This document shows, piece after piece, positions 12,131 through 50,747 of a stretch of 64,000 bases of DNA. Under the pieces are notes generated by a model. It made no database searches, was not told the origin of the DNA, and saw only the letters and a program-made list of their open reading frames with translations. Every line of letters starts with the position of its first letter. Within the stretch, counting starts at the first letter, position 1. The translations under genes and the position numbers were made by a program. This stretch comes from Acetivibrio cellulolyticus CD2 (GTDB taxonomy: Bacteria; Bacillota; Clostridia; Acetivibrionales; Acetivibrionaceae), in NCBI RefSeq assembly GCF_000179595.2, contig NZ_JH556659.1:285456-349455 (forward strand), in the 5' to 3' direction.

Positions 12131-12210
12131 GTATAGGCAATGATGTATATATTAAAGCCAAGAGGCGTACTCGATGAAGAGTTGAATGTTCTTCATTGTA
12201 CGCTTTTTTT
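12131..12210 (+). promoter_or_regulatory. ANTAR-type antitermination leader, first copy
   Basis: A weak hairpin with hexaloop AATGAT (12139-12144) closed by C-G is followed by a possible second hexaloop AAAGCC (12154-12159), then an intrinsic terminator (arms from 12165 to 12203, T7 at 12204-12210). Known ANTAR proteins bind two hairpins with hexaloops having A at position 1 and G at position 4; both loops fit. This is the first of two units ahead of the ANTAR gene. Confidence 0.6.
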
Positions 12211-12270
12211 ATAACTTTTTTACAAATTTGTCTATGATGGTTCTTCAAGGTTATTGCTGGAATAATTATA

Positions 12271-12347
12271 TAAGCAATGGTGTATAGTGAAAGCTTAAAG
12301 ACGAGCGAAGTGAAGAGTAGAAATATTCTTCTTTGGTCGTTTTTTTT
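12271..12347 (+). promoter_or_regulatory. ANTAR-type antitermination leader, second copy
   Basis: Hexaloop AATGGT (12276-12281) is followed by a better second hairpin, GCTT[AAAGAC]GAGC (12293-12306), whose 3' side overlaps the left arm of an intrinsic terminator (12300-12347, T8). The overlap makes hairpin and terminator mutually exclusive, as in ANTAR antitermination. It lies about 145 bases upstream of the ANTAR regulator start. Confidence 0.62.
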
Positions 12348-12492: not shown

Positions 12493-13077
12493 ATGGAATC
12501 TGCAAGGATACTGGTCGCTATGGAGAACGATAGTTTAATAAACAAGTTCAGGACTATATTGCTAGAAGGTGGGTATGAAGTAATTGATCAAGCTAAAGAG
12601 GAAAATGAATGTTTAGGTAAAATCAGATCTCTTAAACCGGATATTACTATTTTAGACTACAAGTTAATTTCTATAGACGGGTCTGAGTTTGCAAAAGTAG
12701 TGTCTCAAAACAAACTATGCGATGTGATTCTTGTATCGGATATGCTAAACTGTGAGGAAAAAAGTTCTATTGATTATATTAAAGCTGAATATGATTTTGT
12801 AGTTATTACAAAGCCTTTGAAAAGGGACAGCTTTATCAATACTATAAATTTGGTAATAAAAAACAGAAAGAAGATAATGCAGCTCGAAACAGAGATTGAA
12901 GAGCTAAAAAAGACTTTGGATATGAGAAAAGATATTGAAAGAGCAAAAGGCCTTTTGATGAAACATCTAAAACTTACAGAGGATGAGGCATTCAGAAGGA
13001 TTCAAAAGCAGAGCATGGACAAGGAAATTTCAATGAAGGAAATTGCAAAAGCAATAATTCTGACATATGACTTGTAA
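12493..13077 (+). CDS. ANTAR-domain response regulator (RNA-binding antiterminator)
   Basis: 194 residues from ATG 12493 (GGAGG seven bases before). Upstream starts at 12463/12466 also have a good Shine-Dalgarno box, but the receiver fold begins at MESARILVAMEND. The receiver (~1-118) keeps a likely phospho-acceptor Asp55 (ITILDYK). A coiled coil leads to an ANTAR domain (~130-190: RKDIERAKGLLMKHLKLTED, then EISMKEIAKAIILTY). ANTAR domains bind paired-hexaloop RNA hairpins and prevent termination. Its own leader and that of the facing ammonium transporter contain such hairpins, so autoregulation and nitrogen control are likely. No partner histidine kinase is adjacent. Confidence 0.9.
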   Translation: MESARILVAMENDSLINKFRTILLEGGYEVIDQAKEENECLGKIRSLKPDITILDYKLISIDGSEFAKVVSQNKLCDVILVSDMLNCEEKSSIDYIKAEYDFVVITKPLKRDSFINTINLVIKNRKKIMQLETEIEELKKTLDMRKDIERAKGLLMKHLKLTEDEAFRRIQKQSMDKEISMKEIAKAIILTYDL

Positions 13078-13090
13078 GAACACTAATAAA

Positions 13091-13120
13091 AACCTCGGGG
13101 AGTGCACCTCGAGGTTTTAT
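13091..13120. terminator. Terminator between ANTAR gene and amt
   Basis: AACCTCG (13091-13097) pairs with CGAGGTT (13110-13116), followed by T-rich sequence; the A run on the left lets it serve the convergent gene too. Confidence 0.8.
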
Positions 13121-13136
13121 TTATTATGGAGAAGTA

Positions 13137-14435
13137 TTAAACAATTTTTTTACTCAGTTCATTTAATTGAAAATATAAGTAGTCTAATTTTTTCTGGTTA
13201 TCTGTTTCAATGCTTTCTTCTTCCGGATAAGCGCTTGTGTGGTGAATTGCTTCATCACATCCTAAAAGTTCTTGTTCTTTAGTAATACGAATACCCATAG
13301 TTTTATCCAACACTTTGTAAACTAATAAACCGCTTATTCCTGCAAATAAAATTGCTGCCAATGTTCCTATTAATTGAGATACAAAACTTACATTACCTGT
13401 ACCTCCAAGTAACCTGGATCCAAATATACCTGCTGCTATACCTCCCCAGGAGCCTACTACACCATGAAGCGGCCAGACACCCAGTACATCATCGATCTTT
13501 AAAAATTCTGTTTCAAAAGTGAACATCTTAATAAATATTAAGGAGCCAATACCACCTACTACTAATGCACCTAAGGGATGGAACAAATCCGACCCGGAGC
13601 ATACAGCAATCAAGCCTGCAAGTGCGCCATTATAGATAGCAGTTGGATCATTTTTTGATATAACAAGAGCTGCTAATACACCGCCAACCATAGCAAAAAG
13701 TGAGTTGATTGCAACCAGAGATGAGATGTTCGCAAAGTTTTGTGCACTCATAACATTAAAGCCAAACCAACCAATAGCCAATATCCAGCTGCCTAATCCA
13801 AGGACAGGGATATTGCTTACAGGAATAGAGACTGATTTGTTTTTATTGTATCTGCCTATTCTAGGGCCGAGGATTATTATTGCAGGCAAAGCGAGCCAGC
13901 CACCGATGGAGTGTACAACTATTGAACCAGCATAATCGTGAAGTGTATTTCCTCCAAGGTACGTAATAAAATCCTGGAACCATGCATTCTGTCCCCATAC
14001 CATTGATTCGAAGAGGGGATATATGATACCTGCGAAGATACCTCCGGCAATTACCTGTGGCCAAAACTTAGCTCTTTCAGCTATACCGCCTGATATAATT
14101 GCTGGAATTGCCGCAGCAAAAGTTAACAAAAAGAAAAAATGCATTAAATCAAATCCAGGGATAGAGGTTTGACCGATAAAACCCATTGAAGCAATCTTAT
14201 CTGCAGACTTAAAAAAACTGATACCATAAGCAATAGGAAATCCTATAATAAAGTAAGCTAAAGTTGATACAGACCAATCTGTAAGGATCTTGACTAAAGC
14301 GTTTGCCTGATTTTTCTTACGAACTGATCCTACTTCAAGAAATGCAAAGCCAGCATGCATTGCAAAAATCATAACAGCACCTAAAAACATAAATAGGATA
14401 TTGCTGCTTGTTAAAATGTTATCCAGGTTATTCAT
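13137..14435 (-). CDS. amt: Ammonium transporter, Amt family
   Basis: 432 residues from ATG 14435, ten bases after GGAAGGG; an in-frame ATG at 14462 lacks such a site. About eleven transmembrane helices are visible with Amt hallmarks: HAGFAFLEVGSVRKKNQANA, GGIAERAKFWPQ, GSIVVHSIGGWLALPAII, FGFNVMSAQNF and ILAVWPLHG-like DDVLGVWPLHGVVGSWGG with the pore-lining histidine. It imports ammonium across the inner membrane. No glnK/glnB gene is next to it, unlike many amt loci. Its leader carries two terminators and ANTAR-type hexaloop hairpins, and the ANTAR regulator is the convergent neighbour. Confidence 0.95.
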   Translation of the reverse strand: MNNLDNILTSSNILFMFLGAVMIFAMHAGFAFLEVGSVRKKNQANALVKILTDWSVSTLAYFIIGFPIAYGISFFKSADKIASMGFIGQTSIPGFDLMHFFFLLTFAAAIPAIISGGIAERAKFWPQVIAGGIFAGIIYPLFESMVWGQNAWFQDFITYLGGNTLHDYAGSIVVHSIGGWLALPAIIILGPRIGRYNKNKSVSIPVSNIPVLGLGSWILAIGWFGFNVMSAQNFANISSLVAINSLFAMVGGVLAALVISKNDPTAIYNGALAGLIAVCSGSDLFHPLGALVVGGIGSLIFIKMFTFETEFLKIDDVLGVWPLHGVVGSWGGIAAGIFGSRLLGGTGNVSFVSQLIGTLAAILFAGISGLLVYKVLDKTMGIRITKEQELLGCDEAIHHTSAYPEEESIETDNQKKLDYLYFQLNELSKKIV

Positions 14436-14485
14436 TTTAATAATTCCCTTCCATAAGTTCATTAATAGTTAATAGCAAAAAATAC

Positions 14486-14537
14486 AAAACCCCTCGATTC
14501 TATTGGTACCTAATAGAATTGAGAGGCTTCATTGCCT
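14486..14537 (-). promoter_or_regulatory. Proximal ANTAR-type hairpin and terminator in amt leader
   Basis: Read on the minus strand, a perfect 4-bp stem AGGC[AATGAA]GCCT (14537-14524) is followed by a long terminator stem (14526-14491, 13 of 15 positions paired) and a T run. The hairpin and terminator share three bases, so they exclude each other. The hexaloop has A1 and G4. Confidence 0.65.
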
Positions 14538-14566
14538 TGCTATTGATATGCGCATTTCATACCAAT

Positions 14567-14629
14567 AAAAAACGCCTTTGAGTAGTTTTACCCAAAAGCG
14601 TCATAGCACATTAGTTGAACATCATTGTT
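14567..14629 (-). promoter_or_regulatory. Distal ANTAR-type hairpin and terminator in amt leader
   Basis: Read on the minus strand, AAC[AATGAT]GTT (14629-14618) precedes a terminator whose arms are 14601-14590 and 14583-14572, followed by T6 (14572-14567). This repeats the hairpin-terminator plan of the proximal unit, giving two checkpoints before amt. Confidence 0.6.
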
Positions 14630-14751
14630 TACAATTAATTAATGCAATTTTACCATACCTAAAAATAAAATGCAATATGGAAAATATTAAGAAAATGTTC
14701 TTAAATTTGCAGCTGCCTATATATTTTACTATATTGCAGCGCAGAAATTTG

Positions 14752-14780
14752 TTGATGCATATTTAAAGTGGGTTTATAAT
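14752..14780 (+). promoter_or_regulatory. Predicted promoter of marR-ABC operon
   Basis: TTGATG (14752-14757), 17-base spacer, TATAAT (14775-14780). It lies directly upstream of the palindromic operator. Confidence 0.6.
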
Positions 14781-14812: not shown

Positions 14813-14914
14813 GTTATTAATTTGGCCTATTTAGAATTAAGTGAAGAGGTAAAAAATCAGGGACTTGAAGTTCTGGGGTTTTTATCAGCTGATTAATTGA
14901 AAAGGGGGAGAGAG

Positions 14915-15430
14915 ATGGCAGTATCCTTTTTTGAAATAATACAAAGAATGAATAAGCTAAATATTCTTCATCGTATTAATATTTTCAAGCAGGCAGCAAA
15001 AAACGGGCTATATCTCGGACAGCTGCCGATATTAGAATATGTTGAAAGGCATGATGAATGTACACAGCGTGAGGTTGCCGACTACATGCAGGTTTCGCCT
15101 CCGTCAATTGCTACTTCTGTAAAGCGTATGCAAAAAGCCGGACTGCTTGTAAAAGCTGCAGATAAAAGTGATTTACGCTATAACCGCCTTACGGTTACTG
15201 AAAAAGGCAGGGAGATTTCACGTGAGTGCCGTAAGGATTTTGACAAAATAGATGCACAATTATTTTCAGGATTTAATGAGCAGGAATGTGAACAGCTTCG
15301 AGGCTATTTTGAAAGAATGATTGCGAACATGTCCGCAGGTGAATTTGCAAACAAAACTTTTTTTTCACTCGTTGCAGAAGAAAAAAAGCTGTTCGATCAG
15401 CAAAACAAGGAGGGGCAAAATGGAGATTAA
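14915..15430 (+). CDS. MarR-family transcriptional regulator
   Basis: 171 residues from ATG 14915, right behind GGGGGAGAG; a TTG at 14897 is open in frame but has no such site. The winged-helix core is at ~45-115 (ECTQREVADYMQVSPPSIAT, SVKRMQKAGLLVKAADKSDL), with the wing KSDLRYNRLTVTEKG. MarR proteins usually repress a neighbouring drug exporter until a ligand binds. Here the stop codon overlaps the first ABC gene by 11 bases, so the three genes form an operon under the upstream dyad. The inducing compound is unknown. Confidence 0.9.
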   Translation: MAVSFFEIIQRMNKLNILHRINIFKQAAKNGLYLGQLPILEYVERHDECTQREVADYMQVSPPSIATSVKRMQKAGLLVKAADKSDLRYNRLTVTEKGREISRECRKDFDKIDAQLFSGFNEQECEQLRGYFERMIANMSAGEFANKTFFSLVAEEKKLFDQQNKEGQNGD

Positions 15431-17153
15431 AAAACTGATACCTTATTTATCAAAGTATAAATTATTTGCAATTCTATGCCCACTGGCCATTATTTGTGAA
15501 GCTCTGTTAGAGGTAAGGATTCCGCTGCTTATGGCAAAAATAGTAGATGAAGGTATTCCGTCAAAGAATATTTCTCTTGTAATGCAAACAGGCGGACTTA
15601 TGGTACTTATGGCAGTTCTAGGGCTTATATTTGGTGCACTCGCTGCAAAATTTGCTGCAATTGCAGGAATGGGGCTCGGAAGCGAAATCCGTAAGGGACT
15701 TTTTGACAAGATTCAGGAATTCTCTTTTTCCAATACTGACAAATTCAGTACTGCGTCATTGGTTACCCGTTTGACCACTGATGTAAACAATATACAGAAT
15801 GTATTTATGATGATAATCCGTACTTTGGTGCGTGCACCTGTTATGATGATCAGTGCAACCATTATGGCATTTACCATAAACAAAAGCCTTGTTGCTGTAT
15901 TTCTAATAGCAATTCCCTTTTTGGCAACGGTTTTAATACTCATTGCTGTTGCGGCATACCCACGCTTTGGTAAATTACTGAAAAAGTACGATGTTATAAA
16001 TGCTTCTGTGCAGGAAAATTTGGTTGCCATTCGTGTAGTAAAAGCTTTTGTACGTTCAAAATATGAAAAGATGAAATTTAAAATTGCTAATGACGAAATG
16101 ATGAACGCTGCGATAAATGCTGAAAAAGTTGTTATATTGAATATGCCGTTCATGCAAATTACAATGTACGCATGTATTGTCTCTATTTTATGGTTTGGCG
16201 GAAATATGGTTATTGGCGGAACAATGATGAAGGGACAATTAATAAGCTTTATCAGTTATGTCACACAAATATTGGTTTCGCTTATGATGATTTCAATGGT
16301 GTTTATTACAATGTTAATTTCCCGTGCTTCATTAAGCCGTGTTGTTGAGGTAATTGACGAGCCTTTAGATATTACAGATACAAACGTAAGTGAAGATCAC
16401 AAAGTTAAATATGGTTCCATTGATTTTGAAAACGTTTCTTTCAAATACAATCCTAATGTACAAGACAATATATTGGAAGGTATTAATGTCCATATTGAAT
16501 CGGGTCAGACTATCGGCATTATTGGAGGTACAGGTTCGTCCAAATCTACACTGGTACAGCTTATACCTAGATTGTATGATGTAACAGAAGGCAGAGTTCT
16601 TGTTGGGGGAGTAGATGTACGAAATTATAAGCTCGATGAGCTTAGAAATTCCGTTGCCATGGTACTTCAAAAAAATGTACTGTTCTCTGGCACAATTAAA
16701 GAAAATTTGAAGTGGGGTAACCATGATGCGACCGATGAACAAATTATAGACGCATGTAAGGCAGCTCAAGCACATGACTTTATTATGAGTTTCCCCAATG
16801 GATATGAAACTGACCTTGGGCAAGGCGGTGTAAATGTCTCAGGTGGTCAAAAGCAGCGTATCTGTATTGCCAGAGCATTGCTGAAAAATCCCAAAATTTT
16901 AATATTGGATGACAGTACAAGTGCAGTAGATACGGCAACTGATACCAAAATTCGAGAAGCACTCCGTAAACACCGTAAAGACATTACCACCATTATTATT
17001 GCACAGAGAATCACTTCAGTAAAAGATGCAGATAAAATAATAATGTTGGATGATGGAAGAGTTGATGCTATAGGTACTCATGACGAATTGCTTGAAAATA
17101 ACCAAATTTATCAGGAAATTTACTATTCGCAACAGAAAGGGGTGATTGCATAA
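15420..17153 (+). CDS. ABC exporter half-transporter with degenerate ATP site
   Basis: 577 residues from MEIKKLIPYL, behind AAGGAGGGG; the frame is open back to 15321 but that part overlaps marR. A six-helix membrane domain (~1-330) is followed by a nucleotide-binding domain. Walker A reads GGTGSSKST (~369), with Ser in place of the usual Gly before Lys. The signature is VSGGQKQR (~472), and the residue after Walker B is Asp rather than catalytic Glu (LILDDSTSAVD, ~495). This is the pattern of the non-catalytic half of heterodimeric exporters such as TM287/288, BmrCD and LmrCD. The partner starts at the next base overlap. Probably a multidrug or peptide exporter. Confidence 0.9.
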   Translation: MEIKKLIPYLSKYKLFAILCPLAIICEALLEVRIPLLMAKIVDEGIPSKNISLVMQTGGLMVLMAVLGLIFGALAAKFAAIAGMGLGSEIRKGLFDKIQEFSFSNTDKFSTASLVTRLTTDVNNIQNVFMMIIRTLVRAPVMMISATIMAFTINKSLVAVFLIAIPFLATVLILIAVAAYPRFGKLLKKYDVINASVQENLVAIRVVKAFVRSKYEKMKFKIANDEMMNAAINAEKVVILNMPFMQITMYACIVSILWFGGNMVIGGTMMKGQLISFISYVTQILVSLMMISMVFITMLISRASLSRVVEVIDEPLDITDTNVSEDHKVKYGSIDFENVSFKYNPNVQDNILEGINVHIESGQTIGIIGGTGSSKSTLVQLIPRLYDVTEGRVLVGGVDVRNYKLDELRNSVAMVLQKNVLFSGTIKENLKWGNHDATDEQIIDACKAAQAHDFIMSFPNGYETDLGQGGVNVSGGQKQRICIARALLKNPKILILDDSTSAVDTATDTKIREALRKHRKDITTIIIAQRITSVKDADKIIMLDDGRVDAIGTHDELLENNQIYQEIYYSQQKGVIA

Positions 17154-19048
17154 TGCCAGGACCAGGAGGAAAGCCTCATAATTTTCAAAAACCAAAAAGT
17201 GTTGGCAAAACGCTAAAGCGTATTTTTGGATATATGCTCGAAAAAAAATGGATGTTGATTCTTGTAGCATTCTTTGTAATTATCAGTGCGGGTGCCGGTG
17301 TAGTAGGTACTTACTTTTTGAAGCCAATAATCAATGATTGTATTATACCGCTTATTGGTAAAAGCCCACAGGATGCTGATTTTGGACCATTTATCCAGAT
17401 GATTTTGATTATATGTGCTGTATATCTTGTCGGAGCATTGTCTTCATATTTGTACAGCCGTATAATGATTAAAATTTCCCATGGTACGCTTAATGCCATT
17501 CGTAAAGATCTGTTCGAAAGTATGCAGGATTTGCCTATTAAATATTTTGACACACATACCCATGGGGAGCTTATGAGCCGTTACACCAACGATGTTGATA
17601 CACTGCGTGAGGCGATCAGTAATGGTGTTACACAGCTTATAACATCTGCTATTACTGTTGCAGGTACGTTTATAATGATGCTTGTCTTAAGTCCGATATT
17701 GACACTGCTGATTATTGTCATGCTGTTTGTGATGTTTGCAATTATAAAGACAATTGGCGGGAAAAGTGCTGCAAACTTTAAAAAACAGCAAAAAGCAGTA
17801 GGTGAGATAAATGGCTACATTGAGGAAATGATTGAGGGGCAAAAGGTAGTAAAGGTTTTCTGTCATGAGGATGAGTCAAAAATTAAATTTGCCCAATTGA
17901 ATGAAAATATGCGTCAGGCTGCGACCAATGCAAATACGTACGCAAGTGTCATTATGCCGATTATGGGTAATATTTCATATTTCAATTATGCACTTACTGC
18001 AGCTATCGGTGCTATGATGGTTATTGCCGGACGTATGGATATTGGTACAATAGCATCATTCTTGCAATATACACGTTCCTTCTCACAGCCTATTACTCAA
18101 ATCAGCCAGCAGTTCAACAGTATTCTTGCAGCACTTGCCGGGGCAGAGCGTATTTTTGAAATCATCGATGAGAAGCCTGAACAGGATGAAGGATATGTTA
18201 CTCTGGTAAATGTAATTAAAAATAAGGACGGTACTTTAACTGAAACGGAAGAACTTACTGGGCTGTGGGCGTGGAAACACCCTCACCATGATGGTTCATT
18301 AACCTATACCGAACTGACCGGAGATGTCCGTTTTGAGGATGTTAATTTCGGATATGACGAGAAAAAATTAGTTTTACGTAACGTTTCTCTATTTGCCAAA
18401 CCTGGGCAGAAGATTGCCTTTGTTGGTTCCACAGGTGCAGGAAAAACGACTATAACCAACCTGATTAACCGTTTTTATGATGTGCCGGACGGAAAAATAC
18501 GCTATGACGGGATCAACATCAATAAAATTAAAAAGGATGATTTACGACGTTCACTTGCAATGGTATTGCAGGATACTCATCTGTTTACCGGTACGGTACG
18601 TGAAAACATCCGTTATGGAAGGCTTGATGCGACTGATGACGAAGTAATTGCAGCTGCAAACCTAGCCAATGCTCATAGCTTTATCCGACATTTGCCGCAA
18701 GGTTATGATACAATGCTGGTTTCGGATGGTTCCAATCTAAGCCAGGGGCAGCGCCAGTTAATTGCGATTGCGCGTGCAGCAATAGCCAATCCTCCGGTAC
18801 TGATATTGGATGAAGCCACAAGTTCTATTGATACTAGAACTGAGGCCCTTATTGAAAAAGGTATGGATGAACTGATGAAGGGCCGTACTGTATTTGTCAT
18901 TGCTCATCGTCTCTCTACAGTTCGAAACGCCAACGCAATTATGGTTCTGGAAAACGGTGAAGTGATAGAACGCGGCAATCATGATGAACTGATTGCACAA
19001 CGCGGTAAATACTATCAGCTATATACCGGGCAGTTCGAGTTGTCATGA
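17153..19048 (+). CDS. ABC exporter half-transporter, catalytic partner
   Basis: 631 residues. Its ATG shares one base with the preceding stop (TAATG), implying translational coupling. Six transmembrane helices lie in residues ~20-345, then an insertion rich in charged residues (~350-395), then the nucleotide-binding domain with Walker A GSTGAGKTT (~425), signature LSQGQRQL (~528) and Walker B LILDEATSSID (~551) retaining the catalytic Glu. With the upstream half it forms an asymmetric heterodimeric exporter. A bidirectional terminator follows. Confidence 0.92.
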   Translation: MPGPGGKPHNFQKPKSVGKTLKRIFGYMLEKKWMLILVAFFVIISAGAGVVGTYFLKPIINDCIIPLIGKSPQDADFGPFIQMILIICAVYLVGALSSYLYSRIMIKISHGTLNAIRKDLFESMQDLPIKYFDTHTHGELMSRYTNDVDTLREAISNGVTQLITSAITVAGTFIMMLVLSPILTLLIIVMLFVMFAIIKTIGGKSAANFKKQQKAVGEINGYIEEMIEGQKVVKVFCHEDESKIKFAQLNENMRQAATNANTYASVIMPIMGNISYFNYALTAAIGAMMVIAGRMDIGTIASFLQYTRSFSQPITQISQQFNSILAALAGAERIFEIIDEKPEQDEGYVTLVNVIKNKDGTLTETEELTGLWAWKHPHHDGSLTYTELTGDVRFEDVNFGYDEKKLVLRNVSLFAKPGQKIAFVGSTGAGKTTITNLINRFYDVPDGKIRYDGININKIKKDDLRRSLAMVLQDTHLFTGTVRENIRYGRLDATDDEVIAAANLANAHSFIRHLPQGYDTMLVSDGSNLSQGQRQLIAIARAAIANPPVLILDEATSSIDTRTEALIEKGMDELMKGRTVFVIAHRLSTVRNANAIMVLENGEVIERGNHDELIAQRGKYYQLYTGQFELS

Positions 19049-38887: not shown

Positions 38888-38909
38888 ACATCAACATAAT
38901 AAAAAATGG

Positions 38910-38998
38910 ACAGGGGAGCTTGTGTAGCAGGCTGAGAGGAAGTTAGCAACTTCGACCCTTACACCTGATTTGGGTAATGCCAACGTAGGAAGTAGTAC
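38910..38998 (+). ncRNA. TPP riboswitch (THI element)
   Basis: The conserved blocks are all present in order: GGGGAGC, GGCTGAGAGGA (38930-38940), GACCCTT, ACACCTGATTTGGGTAATGC (38961-38980) and CAACGTAGGAAG. It precedes thiM-thiE-thiD and should shut them off when thiamine pyrophosphate is bound. Confidence 0.95.
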
Positions 38999-39010
38999 AA
39001 TTGCGTATTT

Positions 39011-50543: not shown

Positions 50544-50747
50544 TGTTTTAGTGTCAAATGACGTAATGCTTGACCTGAGCATTAAAATCAGTGGCCGAAA
50601 GCTTGATAATTTTGAAGCAAAAATGCCAAGGACGGCATTTTTAGCGTCTCGGGACAGGATGTCCCATAGACGCGGCGAAAAATTATCAAGCCGAGGCCTA
50701 CTGATTTTTTGCGAAGGTCACGCATGGAGTCGTTTGACACTAAAACA
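50544..50747. repeat. 204-bp branched palindromic element
   Basis: Outer arms of 15 bp are exact complements (TGTTTTAGTGTCAAA at 50544-50558; complement at 50733-50747). Pairing continues imperfectly inward through 50613 and 50676 (AATCAGTGGCC region, CTTGATAATTTT region). The centre holds two separate hairpins: AAAAATGCC/GGCATTTTT (50619-50642) and GCGTCT-GGGACA/TGTCCC-AGACGC (50644-50673). The whole folds as a long stem ending in a three-way junction. Confidence 0.85.

Follow-up and report, generated by a model that had tools for sequence, protein, structure and literature searches.

The amt leader of Acetivibrio cellulolyticus, a probable tandem attenuator in an RNA-level ANTAR nitrogen regulon

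The ammonium transporter gene amt in the window (the whole 64,000-nucleotide stretch of DNA that was analysed) is preceded by a leader that probably acts as a tandem transcription attenuator under an ANTAR antiterminator protein. A preliminary description of this DNA, made from the letters alone, had proposed that the transporter and a neighbouring ANTAR regulator form one regulon controlled at the RNA level. Comparison of leaders gives good support to such a nitrogen regulon, in which the genes for glutamine synthetase (glnA), glutamate synthase (gltB) and the ANTAR regulator share one leader element; amt is a likely member, judging from imperfect units in one genome. Its leader is the weakest of the regulon, with imperfect partner hairpins in both units. 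In this one genome the uptake of ammonium, both glutamine synthetase and glutamate synthase, and the regulator itself would be tied to a single RNA-level switch.

The amt leader is composed, in order on the minus strand, of AAC[AATGAT]GTT, terminator T1, a 10-pair hairpin with a 7-nt loop, AGGC[AATGAA]GCCT and terminator T2, both terminators being detected in the direction of amt. The features of the gene and its leader are as follows.

14647–14675, minus strand: promoter-like site TTGCAT, 17 nt, TGG-TAAAAT (extended -10), read by eye
14618–14629, minus strand: unit 1 P1 hairpin AAC[AATGAT]GTT, from the sequence and the hairpin scan
14598–14607, minus strand: unit 1 candidate P2, GC[TATGAC]GC, 2 pairs only, its 3′ arm within T1
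14571–14602, minus strand: terminator T1, a 14-pair stem followed by TTTT, from the terminator and hairpin scans and folding
14541–14567, minus strand: unit 2 candidate P1, TATTGGTATG[AAATGCG]CATATCAATA, 10 pairs and a 7-nt loop
14524–14537, minus strand: unit 2 P2 hairpin AGGC[AATGAA]GCCT, from the hairpin scan
14482–14532, minus strand: terminator T2 with its tail; GCCT is common to T2 and P2
13137–14435, minus strand: amt, ammonium transporter (PF00909), from its Pfam domain, start codon taken at 14435
13089–13118, listed on the plus strand: terminator between the convergent ANTAR and amt genes, with a T-rich tail also on the minus strand by eye

A second in-frame ATG for amt lies at 14462. 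Transcription would be expected to start near 14640. The promoter-like site is absent from the promoter scan of the window and matches at 3 of 6 positions of its -35 element; the scan has little power, because it returned 17 sites where 15.1 are expected by chance. On the amt strand it places sites upstream at 14755–14728, 14809–14782 and 14988–14960, and a start at any of these would retain the complete leader. The leader folds to -65.5 kcal/mol, compared with -42.6 ± 4.1 kcal/mol for dinucleotide shuffles (z = -5.55), and none of 200 shuffles was as good. The window also contains a TwoAYGGAY RNA (RF01731) at 50580–50712, above its gathering score, and a TPP riboswitch at 38902–39008.

The two hairpins singled out in the preliminary description, AAC[AATGAT]GTT (14629–14618) and AGGC[AATGAA]GCCT (14537–14524), are present on the amt strand as it said. 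It had each of them preceding a terminator, and two terminators were indeed found; the 3′ arm of AGGC[AATGAA]GCCT, however, is inside the T2 stem. To assign one hexaloop to each terminator is an oversimplification, since every terminator of the ANTAR leader has both a P1 and a P2 hairpin, and AGGC[AATGAA]GCCT corresponds to P2. In unit 1 the linker between P1 and P2 is 10 nt, and the folding energies of P2 (-0.8 kcal/mol) and P1 (-0.1 kcal/mol) compare with -17.5 kcal/mol for T1. In unit 2 the linker is 3 nt with the full P1 stem, or 10 nt if P1 is trimmed to 3 pairs. A hexaloop with A at loop position 1 (A1), G at position 4 (G4) and a stem of at least 3 pairs is found in unit 1 P1 and unit 2 P2; their partners fall short of it, one being a 2-pair P2 with T at loop position 1 (TATGAC) and the other having a 7-nt loop. 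The overlap of P2 with the terminator is clear in unit 2, and in unit 1 it occurs solely through the weak P2.

The ANTAR gene converges on amt and has two attenuator-like units of its own, in each of which the terminator is accompanied by P1 and P2 hexaloop hairpins and P2 overlaps the terminator stem.

12132–12151, plus strand: ANTAR unit 1 P1, TATAGGC[AATGAT]GTATATA, 2 pairs, a mismatch, then more pairs
12169–12182, plus strand: ANTAR unit 1 P2, ACTC[GATGAA]GAGT, within the terminator stem
12162–12210, plus strand: ANTAR unit 1 terminator and T run, from the hairpin scan
12270–12286, plus strand: ANTAR unit 2 P1, ATAAGC[AATGGT]GTATA, 2 pairs, a mismatch, 2 pairs
12293–12306, plus strand: ANTAR unit 2 P2, GCTT[AAAGAC]GAGC, overlapping the terminator, loop closed by T-G
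12299–12347, plus strand: ANTAR unit 2 terminator and T run, from the hairpin scan
12493–13077, plus strand: ANTAR response regulator (PF00072 and PF03861, from Pfam), homologous to EutV and Rv1626

Under the same rule of at least 3 pairs with A1 and G4, the P1 stem of ANTAR unit 1 is interrupted and its P2 loop has G at position 1, while in unit 2 P2 passes and P1 consists of 2 pairs, a mismatch and 2 pairs. With stems as drawn, the linkers are 6 nt in ANTAR unit 2 and 18–19 nt in ANTAR unit 1 and glnA. The four C-G-closed AATG hexaloops on which the case had first been built do exist; they are a selection, which omitted the ANTAR P2 loops GATGAA (12173) and AAAGAC (12297). One of the four, the AATGGT loop of ANTAR unit 2 (12276), has a weak stem and is unlisted in the hairpin scan of the window. 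Presumably two ANTAR P1 loops had been compared with one P1 and one P2 loop of amt. Loop identity across P1 and P2 does not serve as a criterion. Position 1 is not strictly A: the P1 loop of this genome's glnA leader is TATGGA, and G occupies the position in 5 of 23 P2 loops of the set described below.

The protein encoded in the window aligns over most of its length with EutV (6WSH, E = 3.7e-21) and Rv1626 (1S8N, E = 4e-22). Its Asp55 pairs in the alignments with an Asp in both, at the likely phosphorylation site of the receiver domain. Two ANTAR proteins score above the Pfam cut-off in the genome, the window copy and one encoded behind glnA, and they are 58% identical; the second is located at L165:1013-1588. 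The Asp55 position is Glu in the glnA-linked ANTAR proteins of this genome and of two genus mates (G001 and G002), and Asp in that of G007. Since the window copy has Asp and the glnA-linked copy Glu, phosphorylation control of the two paralogues may differ. In the two genus mates glnA, ANTAR and amt lie in that order and all point the same way. The convergent layout, which had been offered as support for a common regulon, lends none, because the genes are codirectional there and a second ANTAR gene lies behind glnA here.

How often such loops arise by chance was examined at several levels. We rejected the bare hexaloop pattern CAATGNNG..CRATGNNG as a genome-wide signal, as it shows no excess over the reversed pattern (55 sites against 53 in this genome). 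The two strands of the window hold 57 terminators, and at 3 of them the 5′ arm bears an A1/G4 hexaloop with a stem of at least 4 pairs, two of the three being in the ANTAR–amt pair; T1 has no overlapping hexaloop of this kind with 4 pairs. A rule combining the loop with its position was then applied to 155 terminators, from the window and 34 other stretches of the genome. C[NATGNN]G in both loops was found at four of them, those of ANTAR unit 1, amt unit 1, gltB and glnA, compared with 2 in all for the other 255 combinations of core and closing pair; the glnA and gltB stretches were included on account of the motif, and of the 34 other stretches, 22 had come from a search with the bare loop pattern. 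This rule is a widened one, as narrower versions missed known glnA-type units: the first of them gives 1 of 155 (amt unit 1), and the second again passes amt unit 1 alone, against 2 for the other combinations.

The shared element was modelled from four sequences, ANTAR unit 1 and the glnA leaders of this genome, G001 and G002 (covariance model R1). The set was confined to this glnA type because a mixed alignment of ten units set P1 against P2 and was rejected. In its own genome, where 150 of 3103 first-look candidates were scored, R1 recovers glnA (105 bits) and ANTAR unit 1 (88.6 bits) and, outside the training set, ANTAR unit 2 (48.4 bits, E = 9e-6) and gltB (35.2 bits, E = 0.006), whose product has GATase_2, Glu_syn_central, Glu_synthase and GXGXG domains. 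Two weaker matches follow, an echo of glnA on the reverse strand (E = 0.09) and one other site (E = 0.37). The search was also run on 58 genomes of the order under tighter filters, 75 candidates being scored in each. With the E limit set at 0.01 it returned 25 sites, spread over 18 of the genomes: the 4 of this genome, the 2 training glnA leaders of G001 and G002, and 19 others. At 18 of these 19 we searched for domains in the longest of the frames that begin no more than 0.8 kb downstream. Four encode glutamine synthetases, and in 13 the product has a class II amidotransferase domain of the glutamate-synthase type (PF00310), three of the 13 (L230, L235 and L247) being short proteins with weaker matches; the product at L231 has no domain at 1e-10 and resembles these three, and the gene at L239 is gltB by eye. 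All 25 sites thus precede glnA, a glutamate-synthase-type amidotransferase gene or ANTAR.

To examine the structure of the element we aligned 26 matches; 24 of the rows are distinct, including the 4 training sequences, and the weakest site, from G053, is absent. All four pairs of P1 change on both sides, and the values observed for the structure of P1 plus P2 were equalled in none of 500 shuffles; P1 is favoured in that the alignment was fitted to it, and relatedness alone, with no structure, can outscore shuffles. When the partners are slid, the covariation score drops from 0.247 to 0.134 or less, though a slide of +3 still gives four two-sided pairs. P2 is almost invariant in this glnA-type set and shows no two-sided changes. 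Its loop is legible by pattern at 23 of the 25 sites, with G at position 4 in all 23 and A at position 1 in 18. A P1 with C-G closing and G4 is present at 19 of the 25; the six sites where P1 is illegible include ANTAR unit 2, G002, in which a 7-nt P1 loop sits within an otherwise conserved glnA leader, and G033, which lacks G4. The glnA and glutamate-synthase leaders tested match no Rfam family at cut-off, and a search of eight related loci at a relaxed threshold gave three chance-like matches. A covariance model is now available for this leader class.

Even at a limit of E = 10, R1 finds no match in the amt leader, and a DNA search across 391 genomes of the class recognised no homologous amt leader: 374 of the 391 gave a match at E up to 1, those listed besides the window being short (19–73 bases). 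The closest relatives of the amt protein are mostly of Geobacter type, at about 65–68% identity among the best 80 of 593 candidates, in a scan that may omit records near this genome. Within the order, amt is 56–59% identical in three other genomes, and the remaining matches are at 32–38%. We scanned amt leaders of the order at loci from 30 of the 34 genomes with an amt match, using a loose rule (G4 in both loops, A1 in one, 3 pairs, P2 at a terminator) that has no shuffled control, and 12 of the 29 others pass; the window leader passes, with 3 pairs, only through pairings that look accidental. Convincing dual-hexaloop amt leaders are those of G041, G027, G054 and G032, together with the near-identical G019, G020 and G022. 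In G041 the leader reads TATAC[ATAGTT]GTATG, 10 nt, GGGT[AATGTT]GCCC, with an overlapping terminator. A composite leader in G048 (L144:1276-1390) comprises TTAC[AATGAC]GTAA, a terminator-like hairpin, and GGGT[AATGAT]GCCC with its terminator, an order of elements similar to that of the window amt leader.

In the leaders of 23 loci from the Geobacter-type amt set, no two A1/G4 hexaloops occur together with the second of them (P2) at a terminator. Nine of the amt starts in that set (L055, L056, L058, L059, L061, L064, L068, L070 and L080) have ACC[AAYGGR]GGT at the ribosome-binding site, and the same nine have GTC[AAYGRY]GAC right after the start. These hexaloops could be translational ANTAR targets, or a ribosome site combined with conserved codons. 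Geobacter has an ANTAR nitrogen regulator of its own, GnfR. The relationships suggest that a Geobacter-like amt has been drawn into the ANTAR regulon, and amt appears from these comparisons to lie often within reach of such a regulon, by different routes. The second ammonium transporter of this genome is an Amt–PII fusion (PF00909 and PF00543; L226:2409-4436), in whose leader terminators are present, with no dual hexaloop at one.

On the reading that we favour, RNA polymerase starting near 14640 would halt at T1 or T2 when no active ANTAR protein is available. Under nitrogen limitation an activated ANTAR dimer, presumably of one or other of the two proteins, would bind the hexaloop hairpins of each unit, P1 serving as the recruiting site and P2 as the antiterminator. 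Because P2 and the terminator stem have bases in common, capture of P2 would preclude the terminator and amt would be transcribed. Since glnA, gltB and the ANTAR gene have leaders of this kind, a joint rise would be expected in ammonium uptake, in both glutamine synthetase and glutamate synthase, and in the regulator itself.

A variant of this reading, possible in our estimate though the less favoured form, has only one amt unit under ANTAR control, either unit 2 with its strong P2 or unit 1 with its good spacing, the other terminator being a constitutive damper or a decaying copy. The 2-pair P2 of unit 1, the 7-nt P1 loop of unit 2 and the lack of a 4-pair A1/G4 hexaloop overlapping T1 all fit it. 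A fully constitutive strong T1, however, would silence amt ahead of T2; the arrangement at T1, a 10-nt linker between two C[NATGNN]G loops, is rare; and the 7-nt P1 loop has a counterpart in the otherwise conserved glnA leader of G002.

It is improbable that the leader is an attenuator of another sort (a riboswitch, the site of another RNA-binding protein or a leader peptide) whose hexaloops are coincidental. The failure of R1 to find it and the imperfect partner hairpins would agree with that explanation, but the loop rule picks out nitrogen genes, and the leader matches no Rfam family at cut-off, the best being a weak match to rli56 (26.7 bits against 47). Still harder to credit, and very unlikely in our judgement, is that the terminators merely insulate amt from upstream transcription without regulating it. 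Two strong tandem terminators would suit such a function, but the next long frames upstream (14897–19048) point the other way, and the terminators sit between the promoter-like site and the amt start.

The type of switch is already known. ANTAR attenuators such as the EutV target eutP of Enterococcus faecalis consist of P1 and P2 hexaloop hairpins with P2 overlapping a terminator (PMC3369931), and the leaders described here resemble them in having two small hexaloop hairpins, imperfect in part, a terminator-overlapping P2 and a REC-ANTAR regulator. That paper already reports dual-hexaloop matches before ammonium transporters and glutamine and glutamate synthases, and one organism whose six transcription units hold no fewer than 13 units; because it names ammonium transporters as targets, we regard the amt leader as belonging to a known kind of system. 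Like those predicted nitrogen regulons, the present one covers nitrogen genes including an ammonium transporter, with several units per organism and per transcript. Relative to the attenuators described there, loop position 1 is relaxed here (G or T in places), P2 of amt unit 1 is very short and the P1 loop of amt unit 2 has 7 nt. The eut linkers between the hairpins are 5–12 nt, and a 14-nt linker sharply cut eutP induction (PMC3369931), so the 18–19 nt of ANTAR unit 1 and glnA lie beyond the lengths that eutP tolerates. The Listeria RNA rli56 (RF01483), with the consensus GAGC[AACGGG]GCUC at its terminator, is matched over its full length by amt unit 2, at a score that leaves the unit outside the family by Rfam's own gathering rule. 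PMC4676874 describes the antiterminator nitR in Clostridium acetobutylicum and an ANTAR gene with the GS–GOGAT cluster in Clostridium thermocellum. As in those cases, an ANTAR or antiterminator gene is linked here to ammonia assimilation, with GS and GOGAT co-regulated; unlike them as described there, this genome has a second, doubly attenuated ANTAR gene beside amt. To a switch of known type (PMC3369931) the amt leader thus adds slightly unusual details.
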